From Acetobacteraceae bacterium (lineage in GTDB: Bacteria > Pseudomonadota > Alphaproteobacteria > Acetobacterales > Acetobacteraceae): DNA of 15,013 nucleotides. The position numbers and the translations under genes are program-made. The notes beneath the pieces are model-generated. The model did not search any database, was not told where the DNA came from, and saw nothing but the letters and a program-made list of their open reading frames with translations. Positions 1 to 15,013 of this stretch are shown here, piece after piece (position 1 is the first letter of the stretch; the number at the start of each line of letters is the position of its first letter). The stretch is taken from positions 1 through 15,013 of the forward strand of contig DAHWNE010000045.1 in assembly GCA_027340195.1 (NCBI GenBank), written 5' to 3'.

Positions 1-155
1 CGGCGGTGGCGGAGCTGGGGGGGCGGATGATCGCCTGCACCGGCGGGCTGCGGGCGGAGGGGCTGGAGGGGGCGGCGCTGGCGCCGGGGGTAGAGGCGGG
101 CGGGGTGGTGACGTTCCTGGCGGCGGTGGAGGGGTTTCAGCTGCTGGGGGGGTAG
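1..155 (+). CDS. DsrE-like protein, C-terminal fragment (5' end outside window)
   Basis: The open frame enters from the left edge (first full codon at base 3) and stops at TAG 153-155, giving the last 50 residues. The visible part has a hydrophobic strand ending in IACTGGL, then an acidic/alanine stretch and a GGVVTFLAA ending. This layout (Cys at the end of a strand, then 'EGL..', then 'GG-V-TFL') is what I associate with the C-terminus of DsrE/DsrF-like small sulfur-relay or peroxiredoxin-associated proteins, where the cysteine can carry persulfide. Only the tail is visible, so family membership is tentative and the specific role is unknown. The last 19 bases overlap, tail to tail, the 3' end of the opposite-strand PEP-CTERM gene. 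Confidence 0.5.
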   Translation, partial: AVAELGGRMIACTGGLRAEGLEGAALAPGVEAGGVVTFLAAVEGFQLLGG

Positions 156-1609
156 CGCCGCCGCCGCCGCGCCATCGCCACCCCGGCCACCGCCGCGGCC
201 AGCAGCACGAAGCTCATCGGCTCCGGCACCGGCGCGCCGCCGGCGATCGTCACCACCTCGGTCAGCGCATAGGCGCCCGATGGGGTGAACGGCAGGGTGA
301 ACCCCTGCGCCCCGCTCACCAGCAGGCCCCCACCCGGGTCGACGAAACTCCGGCTCCCCAGCAGCGTGGTGGTGGCGAAGCCGGTATCGCCGGCATCGGC
401 ATAGACCGACCAGGTCACCACCGCGCCCGCGAGGCCGGTGCTGGTGTCGAAGAACGAGGCGGTGGCCTGGGTCCCGGTGAACCCGGCCTGGCTCAGCACG
501 AAGCGCGCAATGTGCCCGGCCACCCCGGTGGCGCTGATCGCCAGGGTCATCCCCGGGGTGCCGGCGGCGCTCAGGGCGGAAAACCCCGGCCCCGCGGTGC
601 TGACCAGCGCGGTGTTCGCCACCGCCGCGCCGCTGGCCAGCGTCACCCCGTCCACCCCCACCTGCACGCCCACCGAGGGGGCGGTGGTGCTGATGGTGTT
701 GCCGCTCACCGTATCGGCGGCGTTGTGATCGATCTGCCCCGCCGGCAGCCCGGCCACCAGATTGCCGGTGACGTTCGCCGCCGCCCCGTCGTTGACCACC
801 GCGACGCTGCCCGAGTTGGCATCGTTGTTGACGATCGTGTTGCCGGTCACCGCGAGCGCGCCGGGATGGGTCACCCCCTCCTCGCCGTTGGAGATGATGA
901 TGTCGTTCTGCGATTGTGGCCCCTGCTGGATGGTGCTGCCGGTGATGCTGACCGCGCCGCCGTTCGGGGTATCGATGCTGTAGCTCGCGGTGCCGGTGGG
1001 GCCGTCGGCGATCGTGCTGTTGGCCACCGTGGTGGCGACGGCGCGGGATTTCACCTCGTGGCCGACATTGGCCGCGGTGACCGCGCTGCCGGTCAGCGTG
1101 AACTGCGCCACATCGCCGATATAAAGGTTATGCGTGTAACCGTACCCCGCGGTCAGGCTGGGGTCGCTCACGCCGTTGTTGGTGACCGTGGAGTTGGCGA
1201 TGCTGATGCTGCCGGTCCCGACCGACAGCGGGGTCGCCAGGATCCCGTTCTGGTTGCCCGAGAACGCATCCTGGTTCAGTACTAGGTTCCCGGAATAATA
1301 GCGGATCCCGGCCGCGTTGGCGCCGTTGGCGTTGGAGGTGGCCGCGCCGGAGAACGCCACCCCCTGGATCGTCACCGTCCCCGGCGCGTTCACCACCAGC
1401 AGTCCCTGGGCGTTGCTCACCGGCACGGTCGCGTTCAGGTAGGCGACGCCGCCGACACCCTCGATGGTGATGTCGCTGGTGACGGTCGCGGTCTGGTTGG
1501 TATAGACCCCGGCCGGCAGCGCCACCGTGTCGCCGTTGGCCGCCGCCGCCACGGCTGCGGCCAAGGTGGCGTAATCGCCCGGGGCGGTCCCCACCGTCAG
1601 GATGCTCAT
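137..1609 (-). CDS. PEP-CTERM-anchored right-handed beta-helix protein
   Basis: This 490-residue protein is rich in Gly, Ala, Thr, Val and Asn. The N-terminus (about residues 9-60: DYATLAAAVAAA, NGDTVALPAGVY, then ITIEGVGG) is the classic entry of a right-handed parallel beta-helix (pectate-lyase or polysaccharidase-like fold), and short repeats of the form 'xVTGNTIxNN' run to about residue 310. The C-terminus is a PEP-CTERM sorting signal: VPEP at about 461-464, a hydrophobic segment (SFVLLAAAVAGVAMA), then five arginines. Such signals are processed by an exosortase in bacteria that make exopolysaccharide. Oddly, the N-terminus MSILTVGTAPG has no Sec signal peptide, and an in-frame TAG lies nine codons upstream of the ATG, so no longer start is available. 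A GAGGA Shine-Dalgarno lies 5 bases before ATG 1609-1607. No catalytic residues can be assigned; a structural or matrix role is inferred. Its 3' end overlaps the DsrE-like gene by 19 bp. Confidence 0.85.
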   Translation of the reverse strand: MSILTVGTAPGDYATLAAAVAAAANGDTVALPAGVYTNQTATVTSDITIEGVGGVAYLNATVPVSNAQGLLVVNAPGTVTIQGVAFSGAATSNANGANAAGIRYYSGNLVLNQDAFSGNQNGILATPLSVGTGSISIANSTVTNNGVSDPSLTAGYGYTHNLYIGDVAQFTLTGSAVTAANVGHEVKSRAVATTVANSTIADGPTGTASYSIDTPNGGAVSITGSTIQQGPQSQNDIIISNGEEGVTHPGALAVTGNTIVNNDANSGSVAVVNDGAAANVTGNLVAGLPAGQIDHNAADTVSGNTISTTAPSVGVQVGVDGVTLASGAAVANTALVSTAGPGFSALSAAGTPGMTLAISATGVAGHIARFVLSQAGFTGTQATASFFDTSTGLAGAVVTWSVYADAGDTGFATTTLLGSRSFVDPGGGLLVSGAQGFTLPFTPSGAYALTEVVTIAGGAPVPEPMSFVLLAAAVAGVAMARRRRRYPPSS

Positions 1610-1633
1610 GCGGTCCTCGTCTGCGGCCGGAAC

Positions 1634-1663
1634 ATCCTATCGCATGGCGGTGGGCAGCGTCAC
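1634..1663 (-). promoter_or_regulatory. Weak sigma-70-like promoter candidate for the PEP-CTERM gene
   Basis: Read on the - strand, GTGACG (1663-1658) and TAGGAT (1639-1634) are separated by 18 bases and lie 25 bases upstream of the PEP-CTERM start. Each hexamer matches the consensus at four positions. The match is modest and could be chance in this 127-bp divergent gap, which holds nothing else I recognise. Confidence 0.22.
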
Positions 1664-1736
1664 GAAAATCGGACGGGCGGTAAGGTTTCGTCAATGATCG
1701 CGGCGCAGTCTGCGCGGGCCGGAAACAGGATTGTCC

Positions 1737-2231
1737 ATGCGCCGTCTCCTCCCCGCCTTCGCGCTGCTGGCCTGCGTTCTCCTCCCGCCGCCGGTGCGCG
1801 CCGCCGGCATCGCCGTGATGGGCCTGCACCCCGGCATGACGGCGGTGGAGGTCCTGGCGGCGTTGCGCCCGCAGACCCAAACGGTGGCGCGGCGGCTGGG
1901 CGCCTGCCCGGGCCGGGGCGCCAGGCGCTGCCTGCGCAGCCTGTCGGCGCTTGTGCCGGACGGGCGCATCCTGGTCAGCTTCGCCGGAAGCCCGGCGCGC
2001 GCCTGGCGCATCCGCCTGCTGACCGATAGCAGCACCGACCCGCGTCGGCTGCGCGCCGCGGCGCTGGCCAGTTTCGGCCGGCCGGCCCGGCCCGGGTCCC
2101 TGCTATGGTGCGCGCGCCGCTCCGGCCGCGGGTGCGGGCCGAAAGGTCCCCGGCTGCGCCTGCGCAGCGCGCCCGGCGGCGGCAGCATCCTCAGCCTGTC
2201 GGACCCGTCGCTGCGCCGACCCGGCACCTGA
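1737..2231 (+). CDS. Small secreted protein of unknown function with four cysteines
   Basis: The protein has 164 residues. I chose ATG 1737 over the in-frame TTG at 1731 because an AGGA Shine-Dalgarno (1727-1730) sits 6 bases upstream of the ATG. The N-terminus is a clear Sec signal peptide: MRR, a hydrophobic core LLPAFALLACVLL, then PPPVRA with likely cleavage near A22. The mature part starts with GIAVMGLHPGMTAVEVLAAL, a 'small-domain' pattern (G-hydrophobic-x-PGM-x2-EV-x2-L) seen in several periplasmic proteins. Four cysteines fall in two pairs with identical spacing (C57/C65 and C125/C133, each C-x7-C), which suggests disulfides in the periplasm. Very arginine-rich (pI clearly basic). I do not recognise a family and assign no function. 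It converges with the MFS gene 3 bp away. Confidence 0.7.
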   Translation: MRRLLPAFALLACVLLPPPVRAAGIAVMGLHPGMTAVEVLAALRPQTQTVARRLGACPGRGARRCLRSLSALVPDGRILVSFAGSPARAWRIRLLTDSSTDPRRLRAAALASFGRPARPGSLLWCARRSGRGCGPKGPRLRLRSAPGGGSILSLSDPSLRRPGT

Positions 2232-2234
2232 GTC

Positions 2235-3473
2235 TCAGGCGGCCAGCGCCACCGCTGCCCGCCCGCCGGCACGGCCCTGCCGGGTCAGCAGGAACCCCAC
2301 CACCGTCAGATTGGCCAGGTTGAACAGCACCCCGGCGCCGAACGCCGGCGCGTAGAATCCGAAACGGTCGAACAGCGCGCCGGCGAACCAGCTGCCGAAC
2401 GCCATTCCGCCCATCGCGGTGAACAGCACCAGCGGCACCCGCCACGCCGCCTCCGCCGAGGGGAACAGGTCGCGCACCGCCAGCACATAGCCCGGAATGA
2501 TCCCGGCGAAGCCCAGCCCGAAGGCGGCGGAGACGGCGAACAACCCGGCCTCGTTGGTGGTCAGCAGGAACGCGGCGATCGCCGCCGCCTGCGCCGCGGA
2601 CCCGGCGGCGACGGTGGCCAGCCCGCCATGCCGGTCGGCGAACAGCCCCCAGGCCTGGCGGGACAGGAACGCCGCCGCCAGCAGCACCGACAGCATCGCC
2701 GCCCCGGTGCCAGGGCCGATCCCGAGCCCTCCGCAATAGGCCACCAGATGCGCCGAGGGGATCGCCATCGGCACGCAGCAGCAGAACCCGGCCAAGCACA
2801 GCAGCGCCTGCACCGCGCCCGGGCGCATTCCCATCACCCGCGCCCGCGCCCGATTCGCCAACCCCTGGCCCGGCACCGGGACCGACGGCGGCGGGGCCAG
2901 GAACACCACCGCCAGCGGCAGCACCACCACCAGGGTCAGCCCCGCATACCCCGCCATCACCGCCTGCCAGCCGAACCGCGCGATCGTGCGCGCGAACAGG
3001 AACGGCCAGACCACGCCGGCGATATACTGGCCGGAGGAAATCAGCGCGATCGCGGTCCCGCGCTTGCGGTCGAACCAGCGGGAGACATAGGTCACCAGCG
3101 GCGGGTAGATCGCCCCGTTGCCCAGCAGCCCGATCAGCACACCGTGGCCCAGGTAGAGCCCCGTCACCCCGCCATGCGCCGACACCACCAGCCCCGCCGC
3201 GATCATCACCGCCCCGAAGGCCACGCAGGCGCGCATGCCGATGCGGTCCGCCACCCGCCCCATCATCACCCCGCCGAGTCCGGTGCCCATCCACACCAGC
3301 GCGCCGGCGAGCGCGGGCACCGACCGATCGGTTCCCAGGCTGGTCTGGATCGGCACCAGCCCCACCACCACGATCAGCGGCGCCCCGTAGGAGACCGACA
3401 GGATCGCCAGGGTCGCCAGCGCCGCGCGCCAGGAGGCGCGGGATTCGATCGACCCGGTCGGTTCGGCCGCCAT
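2235..3473 (-). CDS. MFS transporter (monocarboxylate/oxalate-formate antiporter-like)
   Basis: A 412-residue integral inner-membrane protein with about twelve hydrophobic segments. The major-facilitator motif A is present in the loop between helices 2 and 3 (GRVADRIGMR, about 72-81). The stretch after helix 4 (SRWFDRKRG, about 131-139, followed by small residues and SSGQY) is typical of the MCT/OFA-type branch that carries monocarboxylates or dicarboxylates. I chose ATG 3473 because a strong GGGAGGAA lies 6 bases upstream. An alternative GTG at 3500 adds nine residues and would overlap the GST stop codon as GTGA, so translational coupling is possible. Last gene of the six-gene - strand run, so it probably imports or exports that operon's substrate. 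The substrate cannot be read from sequence. Confidence 0.88.
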   Translation of the reverse strand: MAAEPTGSIESRASWRAALATLAILSVSYGAPLIVVVGLVPIQTSLGTDRSVPALAGALVWMGTGLGGVMMGRVADRIGMRACVAFGAVMIAAGLVVSAHGGVTGLYLGHGVLIGLLGNGAIYPPLVTYVSRWFDRKRGTAIALISSGQYIAGVVWPFLFARTIARFGWQAVMAGYAGLTLVVVLPLAVVFLAPPPSVPVPGQGLANRARARVMGMRPGAVQALLCLAGFCCCVPMAIPSAHLVAYCGGLGIGPGTGAAMLSVLLAAAFLSRQAWGLFADRHGGLATVAAGSAAQAAAIAAFLLTTNEAGLFAVSAAFGLGFAGIIPGYVLAVRDLFPSAEAAWRVPLVLFTAMGGMAFGSWFAGALFDRFGFYAPAFGAGVLFNLANLTVVGFLLTRQGRAGGRAAVALAA

Positions 3474-3496
3474 CTTCCGTTCCTCCCGCGAGCGGT

Positions 3497-4180
3497 TCAC
3501 TCCCGCGCCGGCACCGCGCCGGCCAGACCGTCATACAGGTCCAGCATCCGCTCGATCCACGGATGAACCGGATCGACATCCTCCACCAGCACCAGCGGGC
3601 TGACCACCCGGGCCCATTGGAACGCGCCGAACACCGCGTAGTCGGCGTAATCCGGCCTCGCCCCGCCCAGGAACGGGCCGGCCCGCAGCGCCACCCGCAG
3701 CGGCTGCAACAGGGCGCGGAACGCCGGCAGCCGGGCCTCGCGGTCGGCGGTCACGGCTTCCAGCCGCGCGCCCAGCCGCGCCTCCCGCGAGGCGCGGAAA
3801 TAGGACGCCGCGGGCTCGTCCAGCATGGTGACGATGTCGCTCACCACCAGCCGGATCAGCGCCCCGTGCAGGGTATGATCCACCCAGGCGGCGATCAGGC
3901 GGATATGCGGCGCCGCCGCGCCCAGCAGCGGGGCCTCGGGGTAGGTGCGGTCCAGATACTCGGCGATCTCCCAGGACTCGACCACCACCGTATCGCCATC
4001 GACCAGCACCGGCACCTTGTCGTGGTGGGCGAAGGCGAGGCGGTCGGTCTCGGTGAAGCGCCAGGGGATGCAGTCCGCCTCCAGCCCCTTGTGCGCCAGC
4101 GCCATCCGGGCCCGCCAGCAATAGGGGGAGAAGCGCCGCGCCGGATCGCGCCCGACCAGTTCGTACAGCTGACGTGCCAT
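3497..4180 (-). CDS. Glutathione S-transferase family protein, LigE (beta-etherase)-like
   Basis: The 227-residue protein begins MARQLYELVG. It has an N-terminal thioredoxin-fold GST domain (about 1-85) with FSPYCWRARMAL (17-28), the cis-proline KVPVLVD (55-61) and VESWEIAEYLD (67-77), where Glu68-Ser69 would bind the gamma-glutamyl group of glutathione. An all-helical C-terminal domain follows. The combination SPYxWR...ALxHKG plus 'DSW/ESW-xIAEYLD' is what I recall from sphingomonad LigE, which cleaves aryl ether bonds of lignin dimers with glutathione. This protein is shorter than LigE (about 280 residues), so only relatedness is claimed. ATG 4180 is preferred over an upstream frame extension that overlaps the enolase gene; GAGG lies about 9 bases upstream. 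It starts 10 bp after the enolase-family stop and runs into the MFS gene, fitting one operon. Cytoplasmic. Confidence 0.82.
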   Translation of the reverse strand: MARQLYELVGRDPARRFSPYCWRARMALAHKGLEADCIPWRFTETDRLAFAHHDKVPVLVDGDTVVVESWEIAEYLDRTYPEAPLLGAAAPHIRLIAAWVDHTLHGALIRLVVSDIVTMLDEPAASYFRASREARLGARLEAVTADREARLPAFRALLQPLRVALRAGPFLGGARPDYADYAVFGAFQWARVVSPLVLVEDVDPVHPWIERMLDLYDGLAGAVPARE

Positions 4181-4190
4181 GAGGCTTGCC

Positions 4191-5303
4191 TCAGCCGCGA
4201 TGGAGGGCGACGTCGCCCAGCCGGTAGCGGGCCAGCACCGTCGGATCCGGATCGCGTCCCAGGCCGGGGCCGTCCGGCACCGCGACATGCCCGCCGTTTG
4301 CGGTCACCGCCTCGTGATAGGGGCTCGCTTCCAGATCGATGAACAGCCGCTCGAACGGCGCTGTCGGCGCCACCGTCGCCGCCAGATGCAGCGAGGCAAG
4401 ATAGCCGGCGCCGAAATAGGCGTTGTGCGAAACCAGCCGCACCCCGGCGGCGCGGGCCAGGGCGGCGATCTCCAGCACCGCCGACGGCCCGCCGATCTTG
4501 GTCACCGAGGGTTGGGCGATGTCCAGCGCGCCGGCGGCGAAGGCGTCGCGGAAGCCGAACACCCCGGCCGCGTTCTCCCCGGCCGCGATCGGCGTGCCGG
4601 CGGCGCGCACCCGGGCGAGGCCGGCATAATCCTCGGGCGGCCAGACCGGCTCCTCGAGCCAGGTGAGCCCGCAGGGTTCCAGGGCGCGGGCCATGGCGGT
4701 CGCCTCGGCCACCGTCCACGGGCAGTTGGTGTCCACCATCAGCCGCGCCTCCGACCCCAGCGCGGCGCGGGCGGCGGCGACATGGGGGACGGTGATCTCG
4801 TGCAGCTTGATGTCGGCATAGCCCTGGCCGGCGGCGCGGGCGCAGGCGGCGGAAACGAGCTCCGGGTCGCCGTAGCGCAGCAGGCTGGCATAGGCGCGCA
4901 GCGGCTGGGGCGGCGTCGCCCCCCACAGCCGCCACAGCGGCAGCCCGGCGGCCTTGCCGGCGATGTCCCACAGCGCGATGTCCAGCGCCGAGAGCGCGTA
5001 GAGATGCGGGCCGTTGCGGCCGAACAGATGCAGCGTCTTTTCCAGCCGCGCCCGCAGCCCGGTGATGTCGCGCGCGTCCTGCCCCAGCGCCAGTGCCGCC
5101 AGTTGGGTGTCGATCACCGCGCGGGTGGCGGCGACGCAGGCATGGCCGAAGCCCTCGCCCCAGCCCTCGATGCCGGCGTCGGTGATGACGCGCACCCAGA
5201 GCGTCTGCATGGATTGCCAGCCGATGCCGCCGAAGCTCACCGGTTTCGCCCCCATGTCGAAGGGGATGCGGGTGAGCTGGGTTTCGATGCCGATGATCTT
5301 CAT
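4191..5303 (-). CDS. Enolase-superfamily enzyme (mandelate racemase / muconate lactonizing family)
   Basis: A 370-residue protein with the two-domain MR/MLE architecture: an N-terminal capping domain (1-125, with the GWGEG motif 47-51 and ALDIALWDIAGKAAGLPLW about 106-124) and a C-terminal barrel. The magnesium ligands are visible as D191 (VDTN), E217 (WLEEP) and E243 (AGEN). The catalytic second-strand motif is K166-L-H168 (DIKLHE) rather than the usual K-x-K, and H293 (SHNAYFG) is the usual C-terminal base. The partner Asp of the His-Asp dyad is replaced by Ser266 (QPSVTKIGG). The family abstracts a proton alpha to a carboxylate; racemase, dehydratase or cycloisomerase activity is possible and cannot be chosen here. 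The start MKIIGIETQ at 5303 is clear; the longer frame upstream lies inside the LLM gene. It begins 5 bp after the LLM stop, consistent with co-translation. Confidence 0.9.
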   Translation of the reverse strand: MKIIGIETQLTRIPFDMGAKPVSFGGIGWQSMQTLWVRVITDAGIEGWGEGFGHACVAATRAVIDTQLAALALGQDARDITGLRARLEKTLHLFGRNGPHLYALSALDIALWDIAGKAAGLPLWRLWGATPPQPLRAYASLLRYGDPELVSAACARAAGQGYADIKLHEITVPHVAAARAALGSEARLMVDTNCPWTVAEATAMARALEPCGLTWLEEPVWPPEDYAGLARVRAAGTPIAAGENAAGVFGFRDAFAAGALDIAQPSVTKIGGPSAVLEIAALARAAGVRLVSHNAYFGAGYLASLHLAATVAPTAPFERLFIDLEASPYHEAVTANGGHVAVPDGPGLGRDPDPTVLARYRLGDVALHRG

Positions 5304-5308
5304 CGCGC

Positions 5309-6310
5309 TCACCCGAATTTCCGCCGCAGCCGCGGCAGGACGTGCTCGCCATAGAGGGCCAGAAACCGCGCCTGGTCCGGTCCCGGCGCGTGGAACACCA
5401 GATGGCGGAAGCCCAGCGCCACATAGGCGCCGATCTTCTCCACGTGCTCGTCCGGGTCGTCGGAGACGATCCAGCGGCTGGCGGCACGCTCCACCGGCAG
5501 GGCGGCGGCGAGGCGCTCCATCTCCACCGGCGAATGGACGGTGAGCTTCTCCTCCGGTGACAGCGCCAGCGCCGCCCAGTGGCGCGTGTCCTCCAGCGCG
5601 CGGACGCGGTCGGTATCGAAGGAGACCTTCATCTCGATCAGCCGGTCGTAGGCGGCCGCGTCGCGCCCGGAGGCGGCCAGACCCTCGGCCACCGCCGGCA
5701 GCAGGGTCTCGGTATAAAGGGTCGGCGCCTTGCCGGAGGTGCAGATGAATCCCTCCTGCCGCCCGGCGTATTTCGCCACCAGCGCGCCGGCGCCGGCGAC
5801 GTAGATCGGGATCTCCTGCTCCGGGCGGTCGTAGATGGTGGCATCGCGGGTGCGGTAGTACTGGCCCTCGAAGGTGACGTGCTCCTCCCGCCAGAGGCGG
5901 CGGATCAGGGTGACCGCCTCGCGCAGCCGGGCGAAGCGCTCCTTGAACTCGGGCCATTCCATCCCGGTGGAGGGCACCTCGTTCAGCGATTCCCCGGTGC
6001 CGATGCCCAGGATCACCCGCCCCGGGCACATCGCGCCCAGGGTGCCGAAGGCCTGCGCCACCACGGTCGGATGGTAGCGGAAGGTGGGGGTGAGGACCGA
6101 GGTACCCATCACGATCCGGCGCGTCCGCGCCCCGAGCGCGCCGAGCCACACCAGCGCCGAGGGGGCGTGGCCGTCGGTGTGCTTCCACGGCTGGAAATGA
6201 TCGGAAACGAAGACGGAATCGAAGCCGGCGTCCTCGGCGGCGATAGAAAACTCCAGCAGGCGCGAGGGCGCGAACTGCTCGGCGGATGCCTTGTAGCCCA
6301 GTTTGAGCAC
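5309..6310 (-). CDS. F420-dependent glucose-6-phosphate dehydrogenase-like LLM oxidoreductase
   Basis: The protein has 333 residues, starting GTG at 6310 with AGGAG 8 bases upstream; longer frames would run through the VWA gene. It is a luciferase-like (beta/alpha)8 barrel. From the start [13 protein letters not shown] to the end [13 protein letters not shown] it matches the F420-dependent G6P dehydrogenase family as I remember it (Mycobacterium Fgd1, 336 residues). The F420 and catalytic residues are present: D37-H38 (SDHFQPW), W42 and E107 (GTGESLNE). The substrate-phosphate residues recalled from the Fgd1 structure (Thr195, Lys198, Lys259, Arg283) align with T191, K194 (CTSGK), K255 (EEKLT) and R279 (SRWIV). 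Known reaction: glucose 6-phosphate + F420 gives 6-phosphogluconolactone + F420H2. It lies 14 bp after the VWA gene and 5 bp before the enolase gene. A related substrate cannot be excluded. Confidence 0.88.
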
Positions 6311-6324
6311 GGTGGACGCTCCTC

Positions 6325-7626
6325 TCAGCGGGTCATTTCCAGCAGGTCGGTCACGACCCGTTCCAGGTCGCGCAGGGTGGAACAGGGGCGGAGCATCTGG
6401 CAATGGGGGGCGTAGCGGAACATGTCCGAATCCCCGGTCCCCCAGGCGTTGCGGTATTCCGGGTTGAGCCACACCACCCGCTTGGCGCGGTTGGAGATGC
6501 GCTCGAGGATCTCCACTCGCGGATCGGTGCGGTTGCCGCGCGCGTCGCCCAGGATCAGCACGGTGGTGCGCCGGTCGATCAGGCCGATCCAGCCCTCCTC
6601 GAAATCGGCCAGAGAATTGCCGTAGTTGGAGGAGCCGAAGCCGATCCGGGTCATGATCTCGGCGATCGCCGGCTCGATCGGCTGGTGCTCCAGGATCTCC
6701 GAGACCTCGATCAGCGAGCCGGCGAAGGCGAAACTGCGGATATCGGCCAGCACCTCGTTCAGCGCGTAGAGGAACATCAGCAGGAACTGCGAGACCGCGG
6801 CCACCGACCCGGAGACGTCGCACAGCACCACCACGCGCGGCTTCTCGATCCGCTTTTCCTTCCAGACGGTGACGAAGGGGATGCCCGACCAGCCCATGTT
6901 GCGCCGGATGGTGCGGCGGAGGTCGAGCTGTCCGCGCAGCCGCCGCCGGCGCGGGCGCGCATAGCGGGCGGCCAGCTTGCGGGCGATCGCGCGCACCAGC
7001 ACCCGCATCCGGTCGTAGTCGCGCCGGTCGAGGTTGGACAGCCGCGTCGAACGCAGCAGCTCCTCGCGGAAGGCCTCGGTCTCCTCACGGGCGAACAGCA
7101 CCAGGCTGCGCTCGACGAAGTCGCGCACGGTGGCGCGCAGCGCGGCCACGGCCTCGGTCAGGCGGCGGGCCTCGTCGTCCTCGCGCTCGCCGATCGCGGC
7201 TTCCACCGCGCGCAGCCCCATCAGGTCGAGGATGCGGCGGGTATAGAGGTTGCGCTGGGTGAAGAAGCGGATATTGGGCAGCCCGGCGGCCTCGCCGGCG
7301 GCCTCCATCGCCTGCGCGATCGCCGCCGGATCGCCCCCGAGCAGCAGCCCGGCCAGTCCCTCGCCGGAAGAATCGGGGCTCTCCTCGGGCGAGGCGGACT
7401 CCGGGGTCTCGCGGCGGAAATAGAGGTCGAAACATTCCGCCAGCGCCTGCTTCTCCTCCACCGTCTTGGCCAGCACCAGCCCCAGCGTGTCGCGCAGTAC
7501 GGCGCGGTCGGCGAAGCCCACCGCGTCCACCGCGCGCATCGCCTCGATGCTCTCGGCCGAGGAGATGCGCACGCCCGCTCCGCGCGCGGCGGCGAAGAAC
7601 CGGCGCAGCGGCTCGGTCGCGTTCAT
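6325..7626 (-). CDS. CoxE-like von Willebrand factor A (VWA) domain protein
   Basis: A 433-residue soluble protein. The N-terminal half (about 1-230) is helical and charged, with an acidic low-complexity linker at 72-92. A basic stretch (RPRRRRLRG, 224-232) leads into the C-terminal VWA domain (about 262-433). The metal-ion-dependent adhesion site is intact: D270-V-S272-G-S274 and the later loop aspartate D361 (LGDARGN). Together with the adjacent MoxR ATPase this matches the CoxD/CoxE type of pair, in which the AAA+ ATPase and VWA partner help mature or activate a metalloenzyme (for example the Mo/Cu CO dehydrogenase). No molybdenum enzyme is visible here, so the client is unknown. Its ATG overlaps the MoxR stop by 4 bp (ATGA), a sign of translational coupling. 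Confidence 0.88.
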
Positions 7627-8576
7627 CCCCGGGCGCGGGCGGTGAGTTCGCCGAGCTGGCGGCCGGCGGTCTCGATATCGACCTCGAACTTCAGCAGCAC
7701 GTTCAGCGTCTCGCGCACGAACTCCGCCGACAGCGCGCCGGCGTGCAGCAGCACCAGCACCCGGGCCCAGTCGATCGTTTCGCTGACCGAGGGCGGCTTC
7801 TTGAGATCGAGCCCGCGCAGGGATTGCACGAAGCGCACCAGCTGCCCGCGCAGCGCGGCGTCGGCCTCCGGCACGCGGGAGGCGATGATGCGCTCCTCCA
7901 GCGCCGCGTCGGGGAAGCCGATATGCAGATGCAGGCAGCGCCGCTTCAGCGCGTCGCCGAGATCGCGCATGGAGTTGGAGGTGAGGATCACCACCGGCGG
8001 GACAGTGGCGGCGATGCGCCCGAGCTCGGGGATGGTCACTTGGTAGTCGGAGAGGATTTCCAGCAGGAAGGCCTCGAACTCCTGGTCCGACTTGTCCACC
8101 TCATCGACCAGCAGCACCGCCCCGCCGGGTTCCTGCAAGGCGCGCAGCAGCGGACGCGGTTCGAGGAAATCGGCCGAGAAGAACAGGTCGCCGAAGCCGT
8201 GCAGGCGGTGCAGCGCCGCGTCCAGGCTGGCGGCGTCGCCCAGCACCTCGCCGATCTTGTCGCGCAGGATCTGGGTGTAGAGCAGCTGCTTGCCGTATTT
8301 CCACTCGTAGAGGGCCTTGGCCTCGTCGAGCCCCTCGTAGCACTGCATCCGGATCAGCGGCAGCGACAGCCAGGCGGCGATGGATTTGGCGAGCTCGGTC
8401 TTGCCGACCCCGGCCGGGCCTTCGACCAGCACCGGCTTGGACAACCGCTCGGCCAGATAGACGGCGGTGGCGATCTGGCGGGAGGGGATGTAGCCGCAGG
8501 AGGCGAGCCCCTGCTCCACGGCCTCGATCGAAGCGACGCGCGCGGGCCCGCGCGGCAGGTCGGCGGAATAAGGCAT
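7623..8576 (-). CDS. MoxR-family AAA+ ATPase (CoxD-like)
   Basis: A 317-residue AAA+ ATPase. Walker A is GPAGVGKT (53-60), Walker B is VLLVDE (154-159), sensor 1 is N201 (LTSNSMRDL) and an arginine finger region is at 211-213 (LKRRC). It has the MoxR-type layout, with YEGLD...YEWKYGKQL after the first helix pair. MoxR ATPases work with VWA proteins as chaperones that insert metals or remodel protein complexes. First gene of the - strand run; a GGGGAG Shine-Dalgarno lies about 4 bases before ATG 8576. The 72-bp divergent gap upstream holds a palindrome that could control both this operon and the acyl-CoA dehydrogenase. Alternative roles, such as a general stress chaperone, remain possible. Confidence 0.92.
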   Translation of the reverse strand: MPYSADLPRGPARVASIEAVEQGLASCGYIPSRQIATAVYLAERLSKPVLVEGPAGVGKTELAKSIAAWLSLPLIRMQCYEGLDEAKALYEWKYGKQLLYTQILRDKIGEVLGDAASLDAALHRLHGFGDLFFSADFLEPRPLLRALQEPGGAVLLVDEVDKSDQEFEAFLLEILSDYQVTIPELGRIAATVPPVVILTSNSMRDLGDALKRRCLHLHIGFPDAALEERIIASRVPEADAALRGQLVRFVQSLRGLDLKKPPSVSETIDWARVLVLLHAGALSAEFVRETLNVLLKFEVDIETAGRQLGELTARARG

Positions 8577-8592
8577 CGTCTCCCCTTGTGTG

Positions 8593-8607
8593 CTACCAAC
8601 CGGTAGG
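8593..8607. promoter_or_regulatory. Candidate TetR-type operator between divergent genes
   Basis: CTACCAACCGGTAGG contains perfect 5-bp arms CTACC/GGTAG with a 4-nt spacer, and a nested perfect ACCGGT. A third CTACC follows at 8610-8614. It sits centrally in the 72-bp gap between the MoxR and acyl-CoA dehydrogenase starts. A TTGTGT (8586-8591) and TACCAT (8611-8616) flank it with 19-base spacing, a poor but possible promoter for the + strand. ACC-N2-CCGG-type palindromes are common operators for TetR regulators of acyl-CoA genes. No regulator gene is in view, so the assignment is inference. Confidence 0.4.
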
Positions 8608-8648
8608 CTCTACCATCATTCCCGTCAGCGCCAAACCCCGGAGGCCGC

Positions 8649-9815
8649 ATGAAGCTTCGCATCACCGACCAGCAGCGCGACCTGCGCGAAGCGGTGCGCG
8701 CCCTGGCGCAGGAGCGCTTCCGCGCCCGCGCGCCGCGCTTCATGGACGGCACGTTCCCGTGGGAGAACATCCGCGAACTCGCCGAACTCGGCGTGCTGGG
8801 GATGTCGGTGCCGGAGGAGTATGGCGGCCTCGGGCTATCCATCATGGATACCGTGCTGATCCTCGAGGAGATCGCCAAGGTCTGCTACCCGACGGCGATG
8901 GCGGTGCTGGGGGAGGCCGGCGTGCAGACCCGCGTCATCGCCCGCTACGCCCCGCCGGCGATCCGCGAACGCATCCTGCCGCGCGTGGTCGCCGGCGAAT
9001 GCATCCTGGCGGTCTGCATGACCGAACCCCACGCCGGCACCGATGTGGCGAACTACCGCACCAATGCGCGCATCGCGGGCGACCGGGTGATCCTGAAAGG
9101 CACCAAGACGCTGATCAGCCGGGCGCGGGAGGCCGGCATGTTCGTGGTGTTCACCCGCGTGGACGGCAAGCCGGGGCGCGAGGGGATCGGTTGCGTGCTG
9201 GTGGAACCCGATACCCCGGGCTTCGCCGTCACCGGCACGTTCCACACCATGGGCGGGGAGAATCTGCACGAGGTCCAGTTCGACGATTGCGACCTGCCGC
9301 TCGAGAACCTGGTGATCCGCGAGGACGGGTTCCGCCGGCTGCTGTCGGCCTTCAACACCCAGCGCTGCCTCAACCCGGCGATCTCGCTGGGGTTGGCGGA
9401 GGGCGCGTTCGACGAGGCGGTATCCTATGTGCGCGACCGTACCGCCTTCGGCCGGCCGATCGCCGAGCATCAGGGGGTGCGCTGGAAGCTCGCCGACATG
9501 TTCAAGGACATCGAGGCCGGGCGCGGGCTGCTCTACCGCGCCGCCCTGACCGCCGATCCGTTCCCCGACCCGTTCCTGTCCGCCACCGCCAAGGTGTTCT
9601 GCAACGAGATGTCGCTGCGCGTCACCTCGGAGGCGGTGCAACTGCATGGCGGGTTCGGCTTCACCGACGAATACCCGGTCTCGCGGCTCTATCGCGGCGC
9701 CCGCTACGGCTCGATCGGCGGCGGCACCACCGAGACGCTGCGCGACCTGATCGGCAAGCGCATCCTGGCCGGCACCGACCGCGCCCGCGGCATCCTGGGG
9801 CTGGACACGCATTGA
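8649..9815 (+). CDS. Acyl-CoA dehydrogenase family flavoprotein, atypical active site
   Basis: The 388-residue protein spans the full acyl-CoA dehydrogenase fold: N-terminal helices, the FAD/substrate motif CMTEPHAGTD (123-132), a middle beta domain, and the C-terminal helices with DRTAFGRPIAEHQGVRWKLADM (263-284) and VQLHGGFGFTDEYPVSRLYR (330-349). The family oxidises acyl-CoA at C2-C3 and passes electrons to ETF. The usual catalytic glutamate is absent from both known places: the C-terminal site reads IGGGTTE (G358 where medium-chain enzymes have Glu), and helix G reads FNTQRCLNPA (Q238 where isovaleryl and long-chain enzymes have Glu). So the base is unknown or the substrate differs. GGAGG lies 4 bases before ATG 8649. 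It stands alone, divergent from MoxR and upstream of the box genes. An alicyclic or aromatic-derived acyl-CoA is a guess from context. Confidence 0.9.
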   Translation: MKLRITDQQRDLREAVRALAQERFRARAPRFMDGTFPWENIRELAELGVLGMSVPEEYGGLGLSIMDTVLILEEIAKVCYPTAMAVLGEAGVQTRVIARYAPPAIRERILPRVVAGECILAVCMTEPHAGTDVANYRTNARIAGDRVILKGTKTLISRAREAGMFVVFTRVDGKPGREGIGCVLVEPDTPGFAVTGTFHTMGGENLHEVQFDDCDLPLENLVIREDGFRRLLSAFNTQRCLNPAISLGLAEGAFDEAVSYVRDRTAFGRPIAEHQGVRWKLADMFKDIEAGRGLLYRAALTADPFPDPFLSATAKVFCNEMSLRVTSEAVQLHGGFGFTDEYPVSRLYRGARYGSIGGGTTETLRDLIGKRILAGTDRARGILGLDTH

Positions 9816-9841
9816 CAGCGGCGCCGGCGGGCGGGTAGAAA
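9812..9841 (+). promoter_or_regulatory. Sigma-70-like promoter candidate for the box operon
   Basis: A perfect TTGACA (9812-9817) overlaps the acyl-CoA dehydrogenase stop codon, followed after 18 bases by TAGAAA (9836-9841, four of six consensus positions). Transcription would start near 9848, about 40 bases before the inferred ligase start. It implies the benzoate genes can be expressed separately from the acyl-CoA dehydrogenase gene. Confidence 0.42.
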
Positions 9842-9871
9842 CCGGCATTCCGATACGGTTATTCGCCCGCC
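9826..9871. promoter_or_regulatory. Imperfect inverted repeat in the box leader
   Basis: GGCGGGCG (9826-9833) pairs with CGCCCGCC (9864-9871). Inside lies a second, smaller pair, ACCG (9841-9844) and CGGT (9856-9859). The outer arms straddle the predicted -10 and start site and end just before the ligase Shine-Dalgarno. It could be a leader hairpin or a regulator site; there is no U-run to suggest a terminator. GC-rich arms of this length also arise by chance here. Confidence 0.25.
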
Positions 9872-9888
9872 GCGCGGAGGAACGCAAG

Positions 9889-11450
<1,562 letters not shown>

Positions 11451-11454
<4 letters not shown>

Positions 11455-12218
11455 TGCTGTCGCTGCCGTTCGGCCGGCTGGAAGCGCGCTGGTGGGGGAC
11501 GCCGGTGACCACCGCGCTGGTGCTGCTGCACGAAGGGCTCGGCTCGGTCGGGCTCTGGCGGGATTTCCCGGAGCGGCTGTTCGCCGCCACGGGCCGGCCG
11601 GTGTTCGCCTATTCCCGGCTGGGTTACGGGCGGTCCGATCCCGCACCGCTGCCGCGGCCGCTCGATTACATGACGCGCGAGGCGGCGCTGCTGCCGCGTG
11701 TCCTCGCCGCCGCCGGGATCGAACGCGCGGTGCTGATCGGCCATTCCGACGGCGGGTCGATCGCCGCCGCCGCCGGCGATCAGCCGGGCGTGCTGGGGCT
11801 GGTGCTGATCGCGCCGCATTTCGTGACCGAAGCCTCGGGGCTGGCGGCGATCGCGACGACGCGCGCGGCCTATGCCGGGGGCAATCTGCGCACCCGCCTC
11901 GCCCGCCATCACGACCATCCGGACAACGCCTTCCTGGGCTGGGCGGACGCCTGGCTGGACCCGGAGTTTCCCCGCGCCTTCGATCTGCGTCCCGCCCTCG
12001 CGCGCATCACCGCGCCGACGCTGGTGATCCAGGGCGGCAACGATCCCTATGGCACCGCGCATCAGGCCGAGCTCGCCGCCGCGCTGATCCCCGGCGGCGC
12101 GCGGCTGGTCTTCCCCGCCGCCGCCCATGCGCCGCATCTGGAAGCCCCGGACGCGACGCTCGGCGCCATCACCGATTTCATCCGCACGCTACTGCCGGAG
12201 ACCCAGGATGCCGATTGA
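11451..12218 (+). CDS. Alpha/beta hydrolase of the box operon
   Basis: A 255-residue alpha/beta-hydrolase-fold protein. The oxyanion region is HEGLGSVGLW (27-36), the nucleophile elbow is GHSDGG with Ser99, the acid is D198 (GGNDPYG) and the base is probably H226 (AAHAPHLE). It has no signal peptide and is cytoplasmic. It is translationally linked to both neighbours: ATGA overlap with the ligase stop (a second ATG at 11454 gives a one-residue shorter product) and 11-bp overlap with boxC. In the box context it may hydrolyse a lactone or CoA thioester that forms off-path, or release an aromatic acid from an ester to feed the ligase. These roles are inferred; sequence alone does not tell the substrate. 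Confidence 0.88.
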
Positions 12219-13833
12219 CTTCCGCACCGAACCGGCGCGCTGGCGCCACTGGCATCTGGATGTGGACGGCAGGGTCGCCACGCTGTCGATGGATGTCGAT
12301 CCCGCCGGGGGGATCTTCCCCGACTGCGAGCTGAAGCTCAACTCCTACGATCTCGGGGTGGATATCGAGCTGGCGGACGCGGTACAGCGGCTGCGCTTCG
12401 AGCATCCGGAGGTGGGCGCGGTGGTGCTGCGTTCGGCCAAGCCGGGCATCTTCTGCGCCGGCGCCAACATCCGGATGCTGGGCCGCGCGAGTCACGCCCA
12501 CAAGGTCAATTTCTGCAAGTTCACCAACGAGACGCGACTGGCGATCGAGGAAGCCGCGGAGGCCTCGGGCCAACCGTGGCTCGCGGCGGTGGCCGCCCCC
12601 GCCGCCGGCGGCGGCTACGAGCTGGCGCTGGCCTGCGCGCATATCATGCTGGTCGATGACCGCCGCGCCACCGTCGCCCTGCCCGAAGTGCCGCTGCTCG
12701 GCGTGCTGCCGGCCACCGGCGGGCTGACCCGGCTGACCGACAAGCGCCGGGTGCGGCGCGACCGCGCCGATGTCTTCTGCACCACCGAGGAAGGCGTGCG
12801 CGGCCGGCGCGCGCTGGAATGGTCGCTGGTGGACGAGCTGGTGCCGCCCTCCAAATGGGATGCCGCGGTGGCCGCCCGCGCCGCCGCGCTGGCCGCGACC
12901 TCCGACCGCCCAGCCGCCGCGCGCGGGATCGCGCTCACGCCGCTGCAACGATCGATCGCGGGCGATACGATCACCTGGCCGCACCTGACCGTCACGTTGG
13001 ATCGCCCCGGCCGGCGCGCGATCTTCCTGTTGCGCGGCCCGGACCGGGCGCCCGGAGATGCCCATGCCGAGGGCGCCGCCTTCTGGCCGCTGGCGGCGGC
13101 GCGGGCGCTGGATGACCCGATCCTGCATCTGCGCGTCAACGAGCCGGAACTCGGCCTCTGGGTGCTGCGCACCGAGGGCGACCCCGGGCTGGTGGCCGCC
13201 GCCGACACGGCGATCGCCGCCGGCGACTGGCTGGCCCGTGAGATCCGCCTGTTCTGGCGCCGCGTGCTGAAGCGGCTCGATGTCTCCTCGCGCAGCCTGG
13301 TGGCGCTGATCGAACCGGGCAGCTGCTTCGCCGGCACGCTGGCCGAGCTCGCCTTCGCCGCCGACCGCTGCCTGATGCACGCCGGCGCCTCGGGCAACGC
13401 GCCGGCGACGCTGCGGCTGGGCGCGGCCAATTTCGGCACCTGTCCCATGGGCAACGGGCTGACCCGGCTCGAGACGCGCTTCCTCGGCGCGCCGGAGGCG
13501 GTGGCGGCAGCGCGGGAGGCGATCGGGCAGGCGCTGGATGCCGAGGCGGCGGAAGCGCTCGGCCTGGTCACCGAGGCGGTCGATCCGATCGATTGGGACG
13601 ACACGGTGCGCCTGCTGCTCGACGAGCGGGCCAGCTTCTCGCCGGACGCGCTTTCGGCGCTGGAGGCCAATCTGCGCTTCGCCGGGCCGGAGACGATGGA
13701 GACGCGCATCTTCGGCCGGTTGTCGGCCTGGCAGAACTGGGTGTTCCAGCGCCCGTCGGCGGTCGGCGAGGCCGGCGCGCTGCGCCGCTACGGCACCGGC
13801 ACCCGGCCCGAATTCGATCCCGCCCGGGTCTGA
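12208..13833 (+). CDS. boxC: BoxC, benzoyl-CoA-dihydrodiol lyase
   Basis: A 541-residue double-crotonase protein, the normal length for BoxC. The first crotonase domain shows FPDCELKLNSYDLGVDIEL (37-55), KPGIFCAGANIRML (78-91) and the oxyanion-forming AAGGGYELALAC (132-143). The second shows EPGSCFAGTLAELAFAADR (369-387) and FGTCPMGNGLTRLETRF. Known reaction: the 2,3-epoxide of benzoyl-CoA made by BoxAB takes up two waters, loses C2 as formate and gives 3,4-dehydroadipyl-CoA semialdehyde. ATG 12208 is chosen over upstream in-frame ATGs that lie within the hydrolase gene; GGAG sits about 6-8 bases before it. Overlaps the hydrolase by 11 bp, so co-translated. Ends directly against the host-attachment gene with no spacer. 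Confidence 0.96.
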   Translation: MPIDFRTEPARWRHWHLDVDGRVATLSMDVDPAGGIFPDCELKLNSYDLGVDIELADAVQRLRFEHPEVGAVVLRSAKPGIFCAGANIRMLGRASHAHKVNFCKFTNETRLAIEEAAEASGQPWLAAVAAPAAGGGYELALACAHIMLVDDRRATVALPEVPLLGVLPATGGLTRLTDKRRVRRDRADVFCTTEEGVRGRRALEWSLVDELVPPSKWDAAVAARAAALAATSDRPAAARGIALTPLQRSIAGDTITWPHLTVTLDRPGRRAIFLLRGPDRAPGDAHAEGAAFWPLAAARALDDPILHLRVNEPELGLWVLRTEGDPGLVAAADTAIAAGDWLAREIRLFWRRVLKRLDVSSRSLVALIEPGSCFAGTLAELAFAADRCLMHAGASGNAPATLRLGAANFGTCPMGNGLTRLETRFLGAPEAVAAAREAIGQALDAEAAEALGLVTEAVDPIDWDDTVRLLLDERASFSPDALSALEANLRFAGPETMETRIFGRLSAWQNWVFQRPSAVGEAGALRRYGTGTRPEFDPARV

Positions 13834-14274
13834 TCAGGCGAGCGGCAGGACCCCATACAGATGCGCGCCCAGCTCGGCATCCGGCGTTTTCATCAGGTCC
13901 TTCGGCAGCGTGGCGTGCAGCTTCGCGCCCGCCGGCGCCCCCAGCGCCTCGGTCAACAGGGCGAGGCTGCGCGGCAGGGCCACCAGCACCAGCGCGTTGA
14001 ATCGCTCGCTGTCGATCCGCGCCGCCACCGCCTCCGCGAAGGCGCGCTCCGCCTGCTGCTTCGGATCGTGGCGCGGGGTGAACGCATGACGGGTCGGGCT
14101 CGCGCTCTCGAAGCTGCGGCCCTGGCGGTCGGAAACGAGGTCGGACACGCGCTTGCCCGCCGTGTCGGAGGTCAGCACCGCGTCCGTGGTGAAGCCGGAT
14201 CCCGCGCCGGGGCGCACCAGCCGCGCGCGCTCGCCATCGGCCAGCACGATCAGCAGCCGTTCGGGATGACGCAT
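13834..14274 (-). CDS. Host-attachment / baeRF-like protein
   Basis: A 146-residue soluble protein of the family annotated as 'protein required for attachment to host cells' (Host_attach, related to bacterial-archaeal eRF1-like baeRF domains). The family hallmarks are ADGERARLV (12-20), the SDLVSDRQGRSFES block (44-57), RHAFTPRHDPKQQAERAFA (62-80) and FNALVLVALPRSLALL (92-107), ending with LPKDLMKTPDAELGAHL (123-139). The molecular function is not established; the eRF1-like fold suggests ribosome or tRNA-related activity, and the attachment name comes from an Agrobacterium-type phenotype. ATG 14274 is chosen over an upstream start; an AAGGGGG lies 6 bases ahead. It ends back to back with boxC, the two stop codons together forming TGATCA. 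An FNR-type box sits 60 bases upstream. Confidence 0.9.
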   Translation of the reverse strand: MRHPERLLIVLADGERARLVRPGAGSGFTTDAVLTSDTAGKRVSDLVSDRQGRSFESASPTRHAFTPRHDPKQQAERAFAEAVAARIDSERFNALVLVALPRSLALLTEALGAPAGAKLHATLPKDLMKTPDAELGAHLYGVLPLA

Positions 14275-14305
14275 GGCAAGCCCCCTTCGGTTCCATCGGG
14301 ACAAA

Positions 14306-14347
14306 AGCCTAGCCCCGCCCACGGGAGGCCGGATTGACCCAGATCAA
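14306..14347 (-). promoter_or_regulatory. FNR/FixK-type class II promoter for the host-attachment gene
   Basis: TTGAC-CCAG-ATCAA (14334-14347) matches the FNR/FixK/Dnr consensus TTGA(T/C)-N4-(G/A)TCAA fully. Reading towards the host-attachment gene, TAGGCT (14311-14306) lies exactly where a -10 element would if the box is centred at -41.5. This puts the start site near 14299 and leaves a 25-base leader containing the Shine-Dalgarno. The box is symmetric and could also serve ChaB on the other strand. It suggests induction by low oxygen or a related redox signal. Seen: the box. Inferred: which regulator and direction. Confidence 0.62.
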
Positions 14348-14382
14348 CGCGCGTCCTCCGCTCCGGCGCTGCCATCCGGGGG

Positions 14383-14592
14383 ATGCCCTACCCATCGATC
14401 CTCGATCTGCCCGCCCCCATCCGCCGTGCCCTGCCCGAGCACGCGCAGGAGATCTACCGCGCCGCCTTCAACCACGCCTGGCCCCATGCGGCCGACGAGG
14501 CGACCGCGCACCGCATCGCCTGGGCGGCGGTGAAGCGGCGCTATGGCAAGCGGGACGGGGTCTGGGTCGCGCTGGACCCGGATCCCTCCTGA
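14383..14592 (+). CDS. ChaB family protein
   Basis: A 69-residue soluble protein that keeps the ChaB pattern throughout: MPYPSILDLPAPIRRALPEH (1-20), AQEIYRAAFNHAW (21-33), then TAHRIAWAAVKRRYGK (41-56). E. coli ChaB was named as a regulator of the ChaA cation antiporter, but that role is weakly supported and no chaA-like gene is in view. This form is slightly shorter, lacking most of the acidic loop before TAHRIAW. No well-spaced Shine-Dalgarno is present; GGGGG touches the ATG directly. With the FNR box centred 42 bases upstream, a leaderless transcript is conceivable. It lies 31 bp before boxB and may be co-transcribed with it. Confidence 0.88.
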   Translation: MPYPSILDLPAPIRRALPEHAQEIYRAAFNHAWPHAADEATAHRIAWAAVKRRYGKRDGVWVALDPDPS

Positions 14593-14623
14593 CCCGAACC
14601 AAGTCAGCGAACGGAGCCGCAGG

Positions 14624-15013
14624 ATGACCGAGACGCAGGCGATCGACTACGACGGCCTGATCCCGAACAATGTCGGGCTCAACCGGGACCCGCGGCTGCG
14701 CCGCGCGCTCGAGACCTGGTACCCGGCCTATATCGACTGGTGGAAGACCGCCGGCCCCGCGATCTATCAGGACAACCCGGTCTATCTGCGCACCGCGGTC
14801 GGCGTGGACCCGGAAGGCTGGGCGCGCTTCGGCTACGTGAAGATGCCGGACTACCGCTGGGGGATTCTGCTGGCCCCGGCGGTGGAGGGACGCAAGGTCG
14901 GCTTCGGCGCCCATCGCGGCGAGCCGGCCTGGCAGGAGGTCCCGGGCGAGCACCGCGCCATGCTGCGCCGGCTGCTGGTGATCCAGGGCGATACCGAACC
15001 CGCCTCGGTGGAG
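14624..15013 (+). CDS. boxB: BoxB, benzoyl-CoA 2,3-epoxidase oxygenase subunit (3' end outside window)
   Basis: The frame is open from ATG 14624 to the right edge, giving the first 130 residues of a protein that is normally about 470-480 long. The start MTETQAIDYDGLIPNNVGL, the block VYLRTAVGVDPEGWARFGYV (53-72), MPDYRWGILLAP (74-85), WQEVPGEHRAMLRRLLVIQG (103-122) and DTEPASVE at the edge are typical of BoxB. BoxB is a di-iron epoxidase that, with reductase BoxA, converts benzoyl-CoA to its 2,3-epoxide using O2. The four-helix di-iron core is mostly beyond the window, so catalytic ligands cannot be checked. GGAG lies 7 bases upstream of the ATG. It is split from boxC by the host-attachment and ChaB genes. 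Confidence 0.95.
   Translation, partial: MTETQAIDYDGLIPNNVGLNRDPRLRRALETWYPAYIDWWKTAGPAIYQDNPVYLRTAVGVDPEGWARFGYVKMPDYRWGILLAPAVEGRKVGFGAHRGEPAWQEVPGEHRAMLRRLLVIQGDTEPASVE

Follow-up and report, generated by a model that had tools for sequence, protein, structure and literature searches.

F420-dependent glucose-6-phosphate dehydrogenase (Fgd) is best known from mycobacteria. According to PMC5352752, the phosphate pocket of Mycobacterium tuberculosis Fgd1 is formed by K198, K259 and R283, and PMC6279831 describes the phosphate residues as alike in FGD enzymes and in the broader F420 sugar-6-phosphate dehydrogenases (FSD). The same paper proposes position 177 as the discriminating one, with Gly marking FGD, Ser marking FSD and Met marking the F420-dependent secondary alcohol dehydrogenase Adf, a rule that is a correlate put forward in one paper and lies outside the curated definition of the Fgd family model TIGR03554. 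Fgd has already been predicted in alphaproteobacteria, and as of 2021, according to a review (PMC8498797), no F420-reducing dehydrogenase had been experimentally tested in these alphaproteobacteria. The structure of a Chloroflexi enzyme (9hav) has been solved since that review, and many named relatives among the 120 listed bear the Fgd name in databases. The enzyme described here is thus an ordinary Fgd whose occurrence in alphaproteobacteria is not new; what is unusual is that its gene has moved away from the F420-synthesis genes, and that many of its relatives have Fgd but lack the other usual glucose-6-phosphate enzymes.

The window, by which we mean the whole 15,013-nucleotide stretch of Acetobacteraceae DNA that was analysed, carries fgd on the minus strand as an open reading frame of 333 aa at 5309..6310, in agreement with the coordinates of an earlier note on this DNA. 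The gene starts with a GTG at 6310, with GAGAGGAG, a Shine-Dalgarno-like motif, 8 bases ahead of it, and its stop ends at 5309. The protein scored 473.5 bits (cut-off 420, E = 2.9e-142, profile positions 2-331 of 331) against TIGR03554, the NCBIfam equivalog for glucose-6-phosphate dehydrogenase (coenzyme-F420), and the second-best NCBIfam model was TIGR03557, which represents a wider F420 subfamily (239.8 bits). A PDB search was headed by Rhodococcus Fgd1 (5lxe, E = 2.1e-132), followed by M. tuberculosis Fgd1 (3b4y, E = 1.3e-131) and Adf (E = 7.5e-61), with identities of 60.7% to the Rhodococcus enzyme, 59.8% over 328 columns to the M. tuberculosis enzyme and 34.4% to Adf. An AlphaFold2 model built from a 31-sequence alignment reached a mean pLDDT of 87.3, confidence being low in two segments, 45-48 and 108-116, that adjoin Trp42 and Glu107, and Foldseek ranked 3c8n and 3b4y on top (TM 0.89, rmsd 4.0-4.1). 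The gene very probably encodes a genuine F420-using glucose-6-phosphate dehydrogenase, and we assign a probability of roughly 0.86 to the reading that it is the orthologue of actinobacterial fgd, whose product would bind F420 in a TIM barrel and oxidise glucose 6-phosphate at C1, yielding F420H2.

A generic FMN-dependent luciferase-like monooxygenase that merely resembles Fgd would share the Pfam superfamily of this protein (PF00296), and the FMN-type model TIGR03885 does match it, at 234.8 bits and under the cut-off of 398.7. However, TIGR03554 outscores TIGR03885 by about 240 bits, and the fgd genes of relatives are tightly tied to F420-synthesis genes (see below), so that curated scores and genomic linkage together exclude such an enzyme for practical purposes. 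The earlier note had argued for a true sugar-phosphate F420 dehydrogenase over a generic luciferase-like protein, and the equivalog score, the aligned conserved residues, the fold and the F420-synthesis linkage in relatives all uphold this.

To pair the active-site residues, we combined a pairwise alignment with a MAFFT alignment of 334 sequences, comprising the window Fgd, two solved Fgds, Adf, 90 locus translations and two lists of 120 hits. The locus translations represent full-length matches of >60% identity, the window's own included, and some of them repeat one gene; the two lists hold the 120 hits listed of 7995 found with the window protein (window-search list) and the 120 listed of 7974 found with Rhodococcus Fgd1 (Rhodococcus-search list). 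All eight residues named in the earlier note aligned to M. tuberculosis Fgd1 at the constant offsets that it had given: the F420-site residues D37, H38, W42 and E107 correspond to D39, H40, W44 and E109 (offset -2), and the phosphate residues T191, K194, K255 and R279 superpose in the sequence alignment on T195, K198, K259 and R283 (offset -4). His38, Trp42 and Glu107 presumably play the chemical parts assigned to their counterparts in work on the M. tuberculosis enzyme. The E values of the TIGR03554 and 5lxe chain matches argue that this correspondence is not due to chance. The eight residues are invariant in 90/90 locus translations and are kept in 120/120 hits of each list, save for E107, which is kept in 118/120 of the window-search list. 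In the AlphaFold2 model, the mean pLDDT of the 10-residue blocks around the phosphate residues is 87 (T191, K194), 77 (K255) and 90 (R279). K255 discriminates poorly, since Adf also has Lys at this position, but at the other three the T, K and R of the window protein are replaced in Adf by V, A and N.

At position 177 itself, the window protein has neither the Met of Adf nor the Ser of FSD; the M. tuberculosis Gly177 is replaced by Ala174. The Ala recurs in 90/90 locus translations and in 118/120 hits of the window-search list, the remaining 2/120 having Gly, whereas Gly is found in all 120 hits listed in the Rhodococcus search. M. tuberculosis His260 corresponds to Leu256 in the window protein and to Met, Leu, Thr, Ile or Val across the alphaproteobacterial sets, with His in 120/120 of the Rhodococcus-search hits listed, and Gln258 corresponds to Glu254. 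Given the changes at 177 and 260, the specificity could differ from that of actinobacterial Fgd, as far as residues can indicate. The phosphate residues tell sugar-phosphate enzymes from Adf, yet, following PMC6279831, they do not tell Fgd from the broader FSD. The residue set of the window protein therefore shows a pocket of the sugar-phosphate type but does not prove exclusive use of glucose 6-phosphate, and of the "full G6P-binding residue set" claimed in the earlier note, the residues stand, present and aligned, while glucose 6-phosphate as the exclusive substrate does not follow from them. An FSD-like enzyme that also or mainly uses fructose-, mannose-6-phosphate or another phosphorylated sugar would fit both the common phosphate residues and the Ala at 177 of the window protein and most of its closest hits, and we consider it rather unlikely: the Ser described for FSD in that paper is an Ala here, and the protein scores well above the Fgd equivalog cut-off, the FSDs having been compared by their published description.

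We then considered the genomic context of fgd in relatives, taking as the linkage sample the best 80 of the 451 loci that had been confirmed in genomes bearing a name. In 77/80 of these loci, cofE lies downstream of fgd on the same strand, at a gap of <200 bases in 73/77 (median 15). The exceptions are two loci close to the window (L045 and L046) and one contig that ends 7 bases past fgd (L113). On the same stretch as fgd, a cofD match was found at 75 of the 80 loci, cofC at 69 and fbiC at 45, counts that include many contigs ending early. The association extends to whole genomes: among 120 genomes of the family, Fgd and CofD were each over cut-off in 30, with 28 genomes having both, 2 having Fgd without CofD, 2 CofD without Fgd and 88 neither (Fisher p = 1e-22, uncorrected for kinship). 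Both Fgd-only cases may reflect assembly limits, one being the window's own assembly (G000, 66% complete) and the other G078, in which the fgd match stops 96 bases short of a contig end and CofH is present, although a search gave no match for CofE. In the two CofD-only genomes (G058, locus L159; G082, locus L160), Fno (npdG) is over cut-off directly upstream of cofE, in the slot that fgd occupies elsewhere. When 20 chosen genomes were searched with the Fno model TIGR01915, none of the 15 Fgd-positive genomes among them had Fno over cut-off; weak npdG matches below it exist in 4 of the 15 (G057, G002, G007 and G078), so the absence of Fno from these four rests on the curated cut-off.

The distribution of the other glucose-6-phosphate enzymes bears on the metabolic role. 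Of the 120 genomes of the family, 86 gave a zwf match, which was over cut-off in 84. The 30 Fgd-positive genomes divide into 15 with a match and 15 without, versus 71 with and 19 without among the 90 Fgd-negative ones (Fisher p = 0.004, uncorrected for kinship). In the genus of the window zwf is present, with only a fragment under cut-off in G000. The next enzyme gene, pgl, was over cut-off in 0/15 Fgd-positive genomes without zwf, one of which (G089) gave a weak sub-cut-off match, in 9/15 Fgd-positive genomes with zwf, in 49/71 Fgd-negative genomes with zwf and in 1/19 with neither Fgd nor zwf. A simple replacement of Zwf by Fgd in the standard oxidative pentose phosphate pathway, in which pgl would be expected to persist, is not supported, because none of the 15 zwf-less Fgd genomes has pgl over cut-off. 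In those genomes the lactone product would be left without its standard enzyme, an argument against a straightforward part for Fgd in the pentose phosphate pathway. Either the lactone opens spontaneously or through another enzyme, or little carbon passes this way and the benefit lies in F420H2 alone, or the substrate is a different one. The last of these is where the FSD-like alternative draws further support, from the same 15 of 30 Fgd-positive genomes that lack zwf and have no pgl over cut-off. Tentatively, and with more doubt than confidence, we suggest for the relatives that in much of the family Fgd might be the sole glucose-6-phosphate dehydrogenase of any known kind, serving in cells without Zwf and Pgl only to charge F420, tied to the cof genes and interchangeable with Fno, and that a different sugar phosphate may fit into the pocket of this clade, which has Ala at 177 and Met, Leu or Val at 260.

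The earlier note also expected the host to make F420. A search for CofD, CofE and CofH returned no match in the window's assembly (2.24 Mb, 66% complete), and the check that the note had proposed for itself, a search of the genome for F420-synthesis genes, thus literally goes against it. The genus presents another picture. Of its six genomes, counting the window's, 5 have Fgd over cut-off, 3 have CofD, with a fourth partial match under cut-off, and 4 have CofH, with one further weak match; one congener (G122) has CofH without CofD and without Fgd. The congener G120 is collinear with the window in three blocks of 93.1-93.3% nucleotide identity that cover 155-15013, G120 having an additional 1 kb or so, and it has cofC (by tblastn), cofD and cofE over cut-off, the last cut near a contig end, as well as CofH within a long reading frame that resembles a fused fbiC. 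Since such a close, collinear congener has cofC, cofD, cofE and CofH, the window's strain likely makes F420, as the note held, and the genes missing from G000 are probably a matter of assembly incompleteness. As an additional observation, TIGR03554 has 16 matches in G000 and 17-23 in its congeners, mostly far under cut-off; these luciferase-like paralogues are possible users of F420H2 or FMN.

In the window, fgd lies in the following run of genes.

7623..8576, minus strand: AAA ATPase, MoxR/MadB-like, first gene of the run (NF047784, 313.7 bits, cut-off 475; PF07728)
6325..7626, minus strand: VWA-domain protein, CoxE-like, upstream of fgd (PF05762, 140.7 bits; MadC model NF047783, 159.2 bits, cut-off 600)
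5309..6310, minus strand: fgd (TIGR03554; 5lxe and 3b4y; eight aligned residues; AlphaFold2 match to 3b4y, TM 0.89)
4191..5303, minus strand: enolase-superfamily protein, mandelate racemase/muconate lactonizing-type, 370 aa (PF13378, PF02746)
3497..4180, minus strand: glutathione S-transferase, GST (nearest solved structure in the PDB, beta-etherase 4yam; NF042997, 161.8 bits, cut-off 440)
2235..3500, minus strand: MFS transporter with monocarboxylate/oxalate-type likeness (PF07690; weak sub-cut-off matches)

This order is complete in the window and in G120, and the junctions in the window are short or overlapping: the AAA gene overlaps the VWA gene by ATGA, and the enolase-superfamily gene, whose product matched no NCBIfam equivalog above cut-off, starts 5 nt past the fgd stop. 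Probably, fgd is co-transcribed with the AAA/VWA pair, the enolase-superfamily enzyme, the GST and the transporter. The position of fgd between the VWA and enolase-superfamily genes is common to the window, G120 (L143) and G121 (L144), and the order VWA-fgd-enolase-GST is found in L143 and in L144/L045, the last two looking like two records of one sequence. In another genome of the genus (G123, L145) and in L047, fgd is still upstream of cofE at a distance of about 1.3 kb, a possible first step in the break-up of the operon; by eye, the stretch between the two holds methyltransferase-like and GtrA-like frames. In G057, fgd stands alone, with cofE, cofD and cofC on a separate contig. We separately considered the AAA/VWA pair as a defence system and rejected this, as the AAA protein gave only weak AAA-motif matches and the VWA protein gave none.

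We placed these loci on a tree of 82 rows, in which the window was joined by 60 of the 80 named loci, 3 loci from its genus, 15 of the 120 hits in the Rhodococcus-search list and 3 outgroup sequences. The window groups with G120 and then, with support, with L045/G121, within a supported 9-row branch of alphaproteobacterial Fgd made up of two further rows and those of the genus. On its own, the genus forms a weak branch (86/36), and because of this weakness and the very long branches of the outgroups, we read neither a root nor a transfer between phyla from the tree. We read the pattern as a relocation in which fgd left the fgd-cofE-cofD-cofC operon within the window's genus, the direction being judged from the commonness of the cof-linked order and not by a formal test. 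The move is taken as a change of regulation and not of the reaction.

A relocated copy could also have been neofunctionalised, the protein carrying out an F420-dependent oxidation of a substrate that belongs to a pathway of the enolase-superfamily enzyme, the GST and the transporter. The tight spacing with the neighbours and the order VWA-fgd-enolase-GST kept in L143 and L144/L045 speak for this. We nevertheless consider it very unlikely, as all eight active-site residues are kept and the window Fgd is 84-85% identical to the Fgd of L047, which is cof-linked, and of L046, around which no cof genes and none of the neighbours seen in the window were found; moreover, with one over-cut-off Fgd match per genome in the genus, there is no second Fgd to fill the old role.

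Several other features of the window were recorded. Diverging from this run, a plus-strand run at 8649-13833 encodes an acyl-CoA dehydrogenase, a benzoate-CoA ligase, an alpha/beta hydrolase and boxC, the last over the cut-off of TIGR03222; no boxA or boxB was seen among the window proteins scanned. The benzoate-CoA ligase looks short, but a frameshift was ruled out, as its missing N-terminus is encoded ahead of the first ATG without a change of frame. At 137-1609 on the minus strand, a repeat-rich, secreted-looking protein ends in what appears by eye to be a PEP-CTERM-like sorting signal. An Rfam search across the window at gathering scores returned nothing.

For the window Fgd itself, family membership, fold and residue set are shown, as are, in its relatives, cof linkage and co-occurrence. 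In the mechanism that we propose, Fgd would bind F420 in its TIM barrel and oxidise glucose 6-phosphate, its presumed physiological substrate, at C1 to the lactone, passing the hydride to F420; the resulting F420H2 would then supply the F420-dependent reductases of the cell. The analysis supports Fgd-driven F420 reduction as normal in many alphaproteobacteria and points to a pattern in which one operon slot holds either Fgd or Fno and Fgd persists in genomes without zwf and pgl, leading to a direct question, namely the electron source for F420 outside actinobacteria. In the parts of the F420 and Fgd literature that our search covered, we found no earlier description of Fgd and Fno exchanging in one operon slot, of the zwf/pgl pattern or of Ala at 177.

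Among known systems, the Fgd1 enzymes of R. jostii (5lxe) and M. tuberculosis (3b4y/3c8n) are closest, at 59.8-60.7% identity over the full length and with cofactor residues, phosphate residues and fold alike; the window protein differs from them in Ala174 (Gly177), Leu256 (His260) and Glu254 (Gln258), and its gene has another neighbourhood. The F420-dependent glucose-6-phosphate dehydrogenase of Thermomicrobium roseum (9hav) has the fold and cofactor class in common with it at 38% identity. Adf likewise has the same fold and four cofactor-site residues, but at 34.4% identity it lacks the equivalents of T195, K198 and R283 and has Met at 177. The FSD enzymes, as portrayed in PMC6279831, have the same phosphate-contact residues as the window protein and differ at 177, with Ser instead of Ala. 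Finally, the Fgd predicted for alphaproteobacterial F420 producers in PMC8498797 is the same enzyme from the same bacterial class; those producers are described there as carrying Fgd besides Fno, whereas in the 20 genomes that we searched, Fno over cut-off was confined to two genomes that lack Fgd.
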